64,000 nucleotides of DNA from the NCBI RefSeq assembly GCF_009833125.1, contig NZ_QRCC01000017.1, positions 1 to 64,000 of the forward strand, read 5' to 3'. The notes beneath the pieces were generated by a model. It was not told the origin of the DNA. It did no database searches and saw nothing but the letters and a program-made list of their open reading frames with translations. Every line of letters begins with the position of its first letter. The first letter of the stretch is position 1. The DNA is from Nitrosomonas sp. HPC101 (GTDB lineage Bacteria; Pseudomonadota; Gammaproteobacteria; Burkholderiales; Nitrosomonadaceae). The position numbers were made by a program, and so were the translations under genes. Of this stretch, positions 51,518-52,830 are shown in pieces.

Positions 51518-52330
51518 TTAAGGAGCGGTTACGACATCATCCAGTATGGCTCTGTCTTGTTTGTTCCACTCCACGTCAAGCAGATTGGAGAACCGCGCTA
51601 TGATCTGAACAGCAAGTCCACCCTGGAACAGGGCAGCCCAAGCCAAGATCACAAAACCCCAGTGCAACGGTGCGCTAAAGAGCTCCTCCATAAACCAGAA
51701 GGCGTGCCCCCACTCATTCAGACCAACGTTAGGCAGGCTCATCAGCGGTCCTGCTACGGTCATAATCAGCGGAAATGACCATCCTTTATTATACAACGGC
51801 AGTCGGGTATTGGCGTAAATAATCATTGCCACCCCCATGATGATGTATACCGGGAATGAGCCATAAAACAAAGGAATATGGCTAGGAGTAAAACTGGTAT
51901 CCCTGATAATCACCTGGTGCCATGAAGCGTCCTGCTCGGTAAAGAAGCTTGATCCCCAGTAAACTGCAAATATATAGACTCCAAGCCACATGAGGAAATA
52001 GAAGTAACGCTTTATTTCCTGCTTCGGAGTCAGACTGGCAAGCTGTTCCGCAGTATTGCGGGTTTTCAACAACCATCCCCATACGAAGAGCGCTATAAGG
52101 GGCAGGACAGCCATTTGAACGCGCCACAAGCCCATCCAGATACGGTCAAATTCCGGCTCCATCGAATCCATGCCATGAGAATAGGCGTATGTGCGTTGGA
52201 AATAGACCCACATTACAGCTACCGCCAGGATGGGCAGCAGACCGTATTTATAGTATTTGGCGTCAAACCATTCAGATTTGTCATAAGCCAGTTGTTGTGT
52301 AGCTTTGTCTTTTAATACATTTGTAGCCAT
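51518..52330 (-). CDS. amoC: Ammonia monooxygenase subunit C, lone copy (AmoC3 type)
   Basis: 270 residues from ATG 52330, with AAAAGGAG seven bases upstream. About six transmembrane helices. The metal-site segment [19 protein letters not shown] with the following [10 protein letters not shown] supplies the Asp and His ligands known in PmoC/AmoC. The N terminus ([20 protein letters not shown]) differs from operon-type AmoC as far as I recall. No amoA or amoB lies nearby, so this is the singleton that in N. europaea (AmoC3) belongs to a stress and recovery response under sigma E. The frame stays open to 52477, but that part overlaps the leader and is not likely translated as AmoC. Confidence 0.93.
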
Positions 52331-52336
52331 AAAAAT

Positions 52337-52375
52337 ACTCCTTTTCGCGAAAATCGGAGTTTCCGTGGAAGCTCC
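52337..52375 (-). promoter_or_regulatory. Two mutually exclusive hairpins in the amoC leader, one hiding the ribosome site
   Basis: On the minus strand, ACTCC (52360-52356), a GA bulge, TTTT (52353-52350), loop CGCG, AAAA (52345-52342) and GGAGT (52341-52337) form a hairpin whose 3' arm is the amoC Shine-Dalgarno sequence. The same CTCC can instead pair with GGAG at 52375-52372, helped by TTC/GAA around a CACG loop, which would free the site. Both foldings share bases 52359-52356, so only one can form. The region starts 11 bases after the upstream small open frame ends. Confidence 0.7.
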
Positions 52376-52386
52376 TGATAAAACAG

Positions 52387-52497
52387 TTACCAGTCTGGTT
52401 TCAGTGTGAAATCTGATTTGGGACAACTCCGGGTTGTCGTGAAAATCTCTGTCAATTGAATCAACCTCATACAACACCCGGATTTCAAATCTTTCAT
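52387..52497 (-). CDS. Putative 36-residue leader peptide upstream of amoC
   Basis: ATG at 52497 is preceded by AGGAGGTG (52511-52504) with a six-base spacer, the best ribosome site in this region. The product begins [19 protein letters not shown] and ends FTLKPDW. It is in a different frame from amoC, has no signal peptide or recognised domain, and stops 57 bases before the amoC start. CCGGGTGTTGT and ACAACCCGG inside it (52481-52471 and 52437-52429) can pair with one bulged base. A regulatory role is inferred from the ribosome site and the hairpins that follow. It is too short for composition to prove coding. Confidence 0.5.
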
Positions 52498-52830
52498 GGC
52501 GAGCACCTCCTTTGTTTTAGTACAAAAATTACCTGTTTTCAGGTACTTATAAGAGCATATCTATAGGATAAAGTTCAACAACAAAACGCATGGATATATC
52601 ACATAAATTTTTCGTTTATTTTCAATATATTTGCATACATTATTGTCAGTATAGCCGGTTACAGAGGGGAAGGGAAGGGAGGGAAAATTACAGCCATGTG
52701 GGCTGCATGTGAGCGGATCACCGTAGACGGTACCGTGTTTTTGTATGGCTTTTTATGGAGAATGGATTGGATTGAGTAGACAGGATAGTGGCTGTCATTT
52801 TAGATAAATATGTATCCTGGGACCTTGATG
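52498..52830 (-). promoter_or_regulatory. Promoter region of the lone amoC (333 bases without another gene)
   Basis: TGAACTT (52577-52571, minus strand) matches the sigma E -35 box GGAACTT in six of seven bases; 15 bases on lies CTCTTA (52555-52550), a partial match to the -10 box. A hairpin TACCTG-AAAA-CAGGTA (52545-52530) followed by ATTTTT overlaps the expected transcript start. Further upstream the DNA is very AT-rich (about 52590-52650), then has CAGCC-ATGTG-GGCTG (52691-52705). No other gene or RNA recognised. Confidence 0.4.

Follow-up and report, generated by a model that had tools for sequence, protein, structure and literature searches.

The lone amoC gene of Nitrosomonas is preceded by a 36-codon frame that comparative analysis supports as a genuine coding frame, kept by selection on its peptide. 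We estimate a probability of about 0.5 that this frame specifies a leader peptide acting in cis: as a nascent chain, its C-terminal part would slow or arrest the ribosome at the end of the leader and tune amoC3. We infer the transcription start, the translation, and the arrest of the leader as well as the signal and the direction of control. The initial annotation of this DNA had combined the leader frame with two competing hairpins into a translational switch; the leader-frame half of that interpretation received strong comparative support, and the competing-hairpin half was not supported.

The lone amoC gene and its relatives

The window, that is, the whole stretch of 64,000 nucleotides analyzed, carries a lone amoC of the amoC3 type (51518 to 52330, minus strand; 270 aa), recognized by Pfam PF04896 and NCBIfam AmoC_BACT. 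The 2.52-Mb Nitrosomonas genome of the window has three amoC genes, the other two being 70 to 72% identical to the lone copy, and the closest named match of the lone AmoC, among the best 80 of 263 matches, was encoded on a contig of Nitrosomonas eutropha BJ4 (98% identity). According to PMC4940428, citing Berube and Stahl 2012, the lone AmoC has been proposed to serve recovery from elevated temperature and starvation. The amoC frame of the window is open upstream as far as a GTG at 52477 (52477 to 51518, minus strand; 319 aa). Since the corresponding frame contained 11 stop codons in the aligned stretch of seven leaders, this extension is probably not used.

Relatives were collected by a search of 125 family genomes and a search of named genomes (best 80 of 263 matches). 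Orthologous lone amoC genes with a readable leader came from N. eutropha BJ4, Nm57, and Nm24, N. europaea ATCC 25978, N. halophila Nm1, and two further relatives, L008 and L009. A ninth leader, L118, was recovered with a peptide profile built from seven others; it lies at a contig edge where amoC3 is cut, with the amoC start on the same contig, and it was absent from the 8-sequence hairpin tests, the isolated-fold energies, and the seven-leader coding test. The core set therefore consisted of nine leaders of the europaea/eutropha/halophila clade, window included. Overall, 22 singleton leaders were compared, and the more distant lone amoC genes include those of Nitrosospira, Nitrosovibrio, and Nitrosomonas sp. 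Nm132; L011 and L038 were without a leader.

The leader frame and its peptide

The leader frame comprises 36 codons and a TAA stop (52387 to 52497, minus strand), with the ribosome site AGGAGGTG (52504 to 52511, minus strand) six bases before the ATG at 52497; here the initial annotation was right, coordinates included. In 8 of the 9 clade leaders the frame was exactly 36 codons long, with no stop or indel, and its last 14 codons read R(N/S)CPKS(D/N)FxxKPDW-stop (8/9). Thus, as in cis-acting leader genes, a short frame with a ribosome site upstream was conserved as coding (8/9 leaders).

Selection was strongest toward the C terminus. The dN/dS of the leader was 0.22 overall, 0.26 for codons 1 to 9, 0.42 for codons 10 to 22, and 0.06 for codons 23 to 36, the last value being similar to that of the amoC3 gene (0.07; seven species, rows L009 and L118 left out). 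By parsimony on the amoC3 tree, changes at positions 1, 2, and 3 numbered 3, 4, and 14 in codons 23 to 36 (14 of 21 at the third position; P = 0.0018), and 21, 23, and 42 inferred changes fell at these positions in codons 2 to 36 (amoC3 tree; P = 0.0021); the third-position excess was not significant in codons 2 to 9 alone (P = 0.28) or in codons 10 to 22 alone (P = 0.098). None of 2,000 column shuffles of seven leaders was as synonymous as the real frame, although this test ignores relatedness and the tree-based count is safer, itself relying on a tree with two weakly supported nodes. L009, with a frame of 9 codons, was left out of the coding tests. The remaining two reading frames over the leader stretch held 30 and 11 stop codons in seven leaders.

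A profile of the peptide matched 8 genomes among the 125 family genomes at E < 1e-20, the next best value being 0.004. All 8 strong matches lay upstream of amoC3, so that the peptide and the gene travel together. A degenerate trace of the peptide (E 0.0043, one internal stop) was seen upstream of amoC3 in G112. An order-level match in G269 (E 2.4e-4, model positions 11 to 28) was weak, lay inside a 113-codon open frame, and was treated as chance. Neither Pfam (E ≤ 1) nor NCBIfam gave a match for the two peptides scanned.

Two cysteines, Cys9 and Cys25, were invariant in all 8 full-length peptides. As in ribosome arrest peptides, the C-terminal residues were kept at a fixed distance from the stop (codons 23 to 36, no indel, 8/8 full-length). 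Conservation that peaks at the stop, this fixed distance, and free synonymous sites are together what would be expected from a nascent chain acting in the tunnel; free synonymous sites are unlike a codon-rationing attenuator, which would keep particular codons. Consistent with a cis-acting leader, the 36 codons were free of indels (8/9) while the spacer from the leader stop to amoC varied from 56 to 66 bases (seven full-frame leaders). Against it, L009 lost the frame after 9 codons (MKVFKSGFL-stop), though its promoter motif, 5' hairpin, and hairpin 1 sequence, described below, are still in place; leaders of other genera have unrelated peptides, a stub of 9 codons, or, in L017 and L048, no frame of this kind; and the C-terminal motif is not a known arrest motif, nor, by eye, did the peptide show an export or membrane signal by the criteria of PMC10987492.

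Promoter motif and upstream hairpins

A sigma-E-like promoter motif, GAACTT-N16-TCTTA, occupies 52550 to 52576 (minus strand). GAACTT with TC 15 to 17 bases on was found in 9/9 clade leaders, and GAACT(T/A)-N15-17-TCNNA in 16 of the 22 amoC-singleton leaders. Its position was conserved at 246 to 262 bases ahead of amoC throughout the clade (9/9), as in a sigma-E regulon, to which the assignment is by motif only. Papers on amoC3 (Berube 2007; Berube and Stahl 2012) are said to link its transcription to sigma-E. The amoC3 mRNA would start at this sigma-E-type promoter, about 216 bases upstream, and the 36-codon leader gene on it would be translated.

At the predicted 5' end of the transcript, UACCUG can pair with CAGGUA (52530 to 52545, minus strand). 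In 13 leaders, 69 of 78 cells were paired, with two positions changed on both sides, and 104 of 5,000 shuffles did as well; the consensus fold also pairs three bases of this 5' hairpin with the amoC ribosome site. Within the leader frame, a hairpin of UCCGG..GUUGU with ACAACCCGGA (52428 to 52482, minus strand) had 94.4% of cells paired (121/500 shuffles as high) and a covariation score matched by 28/500; its support is weak because the hairpin overlaps with codon constraint. A further hairpin over the 3' arm of the leader (GACAAC/GUUGUC) was rejected, as 218/500 shuffles reached its covariation score. Rfam gave no match above the gathering score in the window, and two matches far below it fell in 52250 to 52650.

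Hairpins between the leader and amoC

Downstream of the leader stop, CTCC at 52359-52356 can pair either with GGAG at 52375-52372, forming hairpin 1 (52356 to 52375, minus strand), or with the amoC ribosome site GGAG at 52341-52338 (minus strand; present in 9/9), forming hairpin 2 (52338 to 52359, minus strand) with TTTT/AAAA inside. All these elements were found as the initial annotation described them. The bare GGAG..CTCC..GGAG pattern occurred 18 times in the 2.5-Mb genome against 10 times for the pattern read backwards, and alone it is therefore weak evidence. The 79 bases around both hairpins folded no better than shuffles (63/200 as good), and the 244-base leader folded somewhat better (14/200 as good).

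The expectation that both stems would show compensatory changes among singleton leaders held modestly for hairpin 1 and found no support for hairpin 2. The covariation score of hairpin 1 was reached by 0/500 shuffles with 9 sequences and 7/500 with 8, although its count of pairs changed on both sides (1) was not unusual (321/500 and 431/500, respectively). Pairing in register was 90.3%, against at most 70.8% when slid (9 sequences). The fourth pair was G-C in 5/9 leaders and A-U in 4/9 (L007, L008, L010, L118); these four group on the amoC3 tree, so the change was probably a single event. The loop was UCCG, UCCG, UGCG, UACG, or UUCG in 5/9, of the UNCG type, which is very stable, and the 4 leaders nearest the window had CACG. 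Inner-stem probability in full-leader folds ran from 0.02 (L010) and 0.28 (L008) up to 0.99 (L007), so that hairpin 1 is predicted not to be the dominant fold in every leader. Conservation of hairpin 1 is thus modestly supported.

For hairpin 2, pairing is possible, and covariation did not exceed shuffles (289/500 as high with 9 sequences, 500/500 with 8). The hairpin was weaker than hairpin 1 by 3.7 to 6.5 kcal/mol in 8/8 sequences (isolated folds, 28°C), and in L010 the best fold of the stretch was a different one. Its pairs fitted best in register (92.2% versus at most 78.1% when slid with 8 sequences; 93.7% versus at most 77.8% with 9), a control that favors any structure read off one of the sequences. 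In folds from the predicted start, CTCC was the main partner of the amoC site in the window (pairing probability 0.76) and L006 (0.49) and a lesser one in L004 (0.27, two of four bases), and in the other 6/9 leaders it was missing from the five partners listed for the site; the competing fold proposed earlier is reasonable for the window alone and not general, the predicted partner of the site varying between species. Nor was the site more hidden than with shuffled upstream sequence in any of the nine leaders (14 to 84 of 100 shuffles hid it at least as well). Local folds of L007, L008, L118, and several leaders of other genera had pointed to a U-rich strand past the leader stop as a partner of the site; it was rejected, since with folding begun at the predicted start it was a main partner in just two of the nine leaders, L007 and L118.

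The initial annotation also held that a ribosome at the stop of the small frame would cover part of the upstream GGAG. With the leader stop in its A site, a ribosome whose leading edge is at the usual +16 would extend to about 52377, 2 bases short of 52375. Hairpin 1 starts 11 bases past the leader stop in the window and about 13 to 19 bases past it in seven relatives (counted by eye), leaving the edge further off, and the shortened frame of L009 stops about 100 bases before hairpin 1. A ribosome at the leader stop should therefore not reach hairpin 1. With a ribosome placed there, the openness of the amoC site rose from 0.23 to 0.37 in the window and changed by -0.04 to +0.17 over the nine leaders, predicting a small and inconsistent effect.

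An intrinsic terminator was sought in the last 200 bases; there was no candidate in 4/9 clade leaders (L001, L004, L005, L006), and the other 5/9 had low-scoring candidates (own scoring, without a shuffled control).

Alternative explanations

The leader frame could encode a 36-residue small protein acting in trans, for example a copper-enzyme accessory with two invariant cysteines, its position serving joint expression only. Purifying selection at the amino-acid level with free synonymous sites, the cysteines kept in 8/8 full-length peptides, and the strong ribosome site would all suit such a protein. However, it is lost in L009 and unrecognizable in most leaders of other genera, yet the lone amoC stays; in addition, it had no match in two family libraries and no strong match away from amoC3 among the 125 family genomes, and we regard this reading as unlikely. 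Alternatively, translation of the frame might merely keep ribosomes on a long untranslated stretch, protecting it against Rho termination or decay, with the hairpins stabilizing the mRNA and the peptide sequence of minor importance. The upkeep of the 5' hairpin and hairpin 1 and the occurrence of different peptides at a similar place in other genera fit this passive role, but it leaves the dN/dS of 0.06 in the final 14 codons unexplained and appears rather improbable.

We hold a switch in which hairpins 1 and 2 compete for CTCC, decided by a ribosome at the leader stop, to be very unlikely. Its elements are present in the window, with the CTCC-site pairing also predicted in L006 and L004 and the hairpin 2 pairs best in register, and the shared strand changes only from C to U, keeping its pairing with the ribosome site. 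However, a C-to-U change opposite G never breaks pairing, so this pattern is cheap; CTCC is a listed partner in 3/9 leaders only, the distance from stop to hairpin is too long and variable, and the greater stability of hairpin 1 in isolation (8/8) and the missing covariation of hairpin 2 tell against a swap. We therefore rejected the switch as a conserved mechanism: a selected leader frame ahead of amoC is supported, and competing hairpins that set amoC output are not. Mutually exclusive attenuators of the erm type conserve both stems, whereas here conservation was modest for hairpin 1 and without support for hairpin 2. Least probable of all is an RNA thermometer, in which hairpin 2, with TTTT/AAAA beside the ribosome site, would melt on heating and let a heat-related amoC3 be translated. 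The proposed role of the lone AmoC in recovery from elevated temperature (PMC4940428) and the weakening of hairpin 2, which has -4.8 kcal/mol at 28°C and -2.8 kcal/mol at 42°C, speak for it. It was nevertheless rejected, because predicted site openness in the window barely depended on temperature (0.11 at 28°C, 0.18 at 42°C), covariation gave no support for conservation of the stem, hairpin 1 was stronger, and Rfam gave no match. For the cis-acting leader peptide, the likely route to amoC3 would instead run through the 56- to 66-base spacer and hairpin 1 (Rho or RNase access, or re-initiation) and not through a hairpin 1/2 swap.

Leaders of lone amoC genes in other genera

Of the 22 singleton leaders, 17 carried a frame of at least 9 codons with a ribosome site ahead of it in the final 250 bases upstream of amoC, where 1.54 would be expected; these leaders are related, and the 17 are not independent cases. 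No such small frame was found within 250 bases in L017 and L048. The Nm132 leader peptide is MDALKPVLPKIFHFWKIFGRAGAVVFVLSF. A hydrophobic frame of 25 to 29 residues (GKLLAxSYFxG.. or close; MKVGKLLALSYFTGMTVALLAVALF type), unlike the Nitrosomonas peptide, lies about 130 to 255 bases before amoC in L042, L044, L045, and L047, its owners being three Nitrosospira multiformis strains, with a similar one in Nitrosovibrio Nv6. Tandem leader frames occur in Nv4, Nv6, and Nsp11. In the last 400 bases of L040, L041, L043, and L015, two tandem small frames occur together with a repeated element, CTGGTAG, and with sigma-E-like motifs in two places, and these leaders look like duplicated leader modules.

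Terminator-like hairpins with T runs stand about 95 to 140 bases before amoC in L017, L019, L022, and L048 (without a shuffled control), and the highest-scoring terminator candidates of the 22 leaders were in L017, L019, L022, L042, L044, L045, and L048 (own scoring, without a shuffled control); transcription attenuation at such hairpins is possible in other genera. In L046 and L047, the last codons of the small frame cross a T-rich strand predicted to pair with the amoC ribosome site. Predicted site openness rose from 0.16 to 0.41 in L046 and from 0.10 to 0.67 in L047 once a ribosome was placed at the stop (fold from 200 bases before amoC, without a control), making these leaders, on these predictions, better candidates than the window for ribosome-gated opening. 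Elsewhere in the genome of the window, a 12-codon frame with the ribosome site MIGRGLLAGGLL lies about 296 bases before one amoCAB-type amoC (L002); two N. eutropha operon leaders (L065, L069), checked over that length, did not show this frame.

Comparison with known upstream peptides

TnaC-type leaders are short and soluble, and they arrest with a ligand. The amoC3 leader is likewise short and soluble, with conservation up to the stop (TnaC is named in PMC9973294). No motif shared with TnaC was seen, and arrest and ligand are putative here. In Nitrosococcus oceani, amoR lies upstream of amoC. Going by the description of amoR, the amoC3 leader is alike as an extra gene of the amo operon, and PMC10030591 gives amoR as reported only in Nitrosococcus.

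The proteobacterial examples CruR and CutF (PMC9426467; PMC9973294) show that an upstream peptide can serve as a copper sensor that works by way of Rho or a stem-loop. The copper-responsive upstream frame of Bordetella pertussis, CruR (DUF2946), resembles the amoC3 leader in conserved cysteines and a motif near the C terminus, and it controls downstream genes in cis (PMC9426467), as we infer for the leader. In contrast, CruR has 145 residues with CXXC and RAPP (PMC9426467), and the leader peptide, at 36 residues, lacks both motifs and gave no Pfam match in the two cases scanned; a RAPP-like motif near the C terminus was absent from the translated leader peptides. CutF-cutO of Rhodobacter capsulatus (PMC9973294) similarly pairs an upstream peptide bearing a conserved C-terminal motif with a stem-loop before the next ribosome site. 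Unlike the amoC3 leader, CutF has a Sec signal, a proline-rich end, and a stem-loop shielding the ribosome site (PMC9973294), for which conservation gives no support here. The NSP-stop, NAP-stop, and DGMK-stop arrest peptides (PMC10987492) share with it a conserved C-terminal end next to the stop; those peptides, however, were chosen by their export or membrane signal and stand before sec or yidC genes, whereas inspection by eye gave no obvious signal in the leader peptide, whose downstream neighbor is amoC.

Implications for control of amoC3

A bolder reading, which we consider a tentative minority view, is that these peptides form a new class of stop-codon arrest peptide, 'KPDW-stop', lying, at 36 residues, wholly or almost wholly inside the ribosome tunnel, which would sense a stress-linked signal and gate a stress-related AMO subunit on top of sigma-E control, other ammonia-oxidizer genera having placed unrelated leader peptides there. 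The signal may be copper or redox, sensed through the invariant Cys9 and Cys25, or may come from an amino acid or from translation. AMO contains copper and both cysteines of the peptide are invariant, but copper sensing is only a suggestion. None of the titles and abstract openings listed by the literature searches described a leader controlling a lone amoC, which is not proof of absence.

A selected leader peptide before amoC3 suggests a second, post-transcriptional layer of control. As the 14-residue motif is defined and can be mutated, the question of which signal gates AmoC3 is directly testable. If the reading is true, a peptide without a known motif would join the arrest or leader peptides, from a lineage that matters to the nitrogen cycle.
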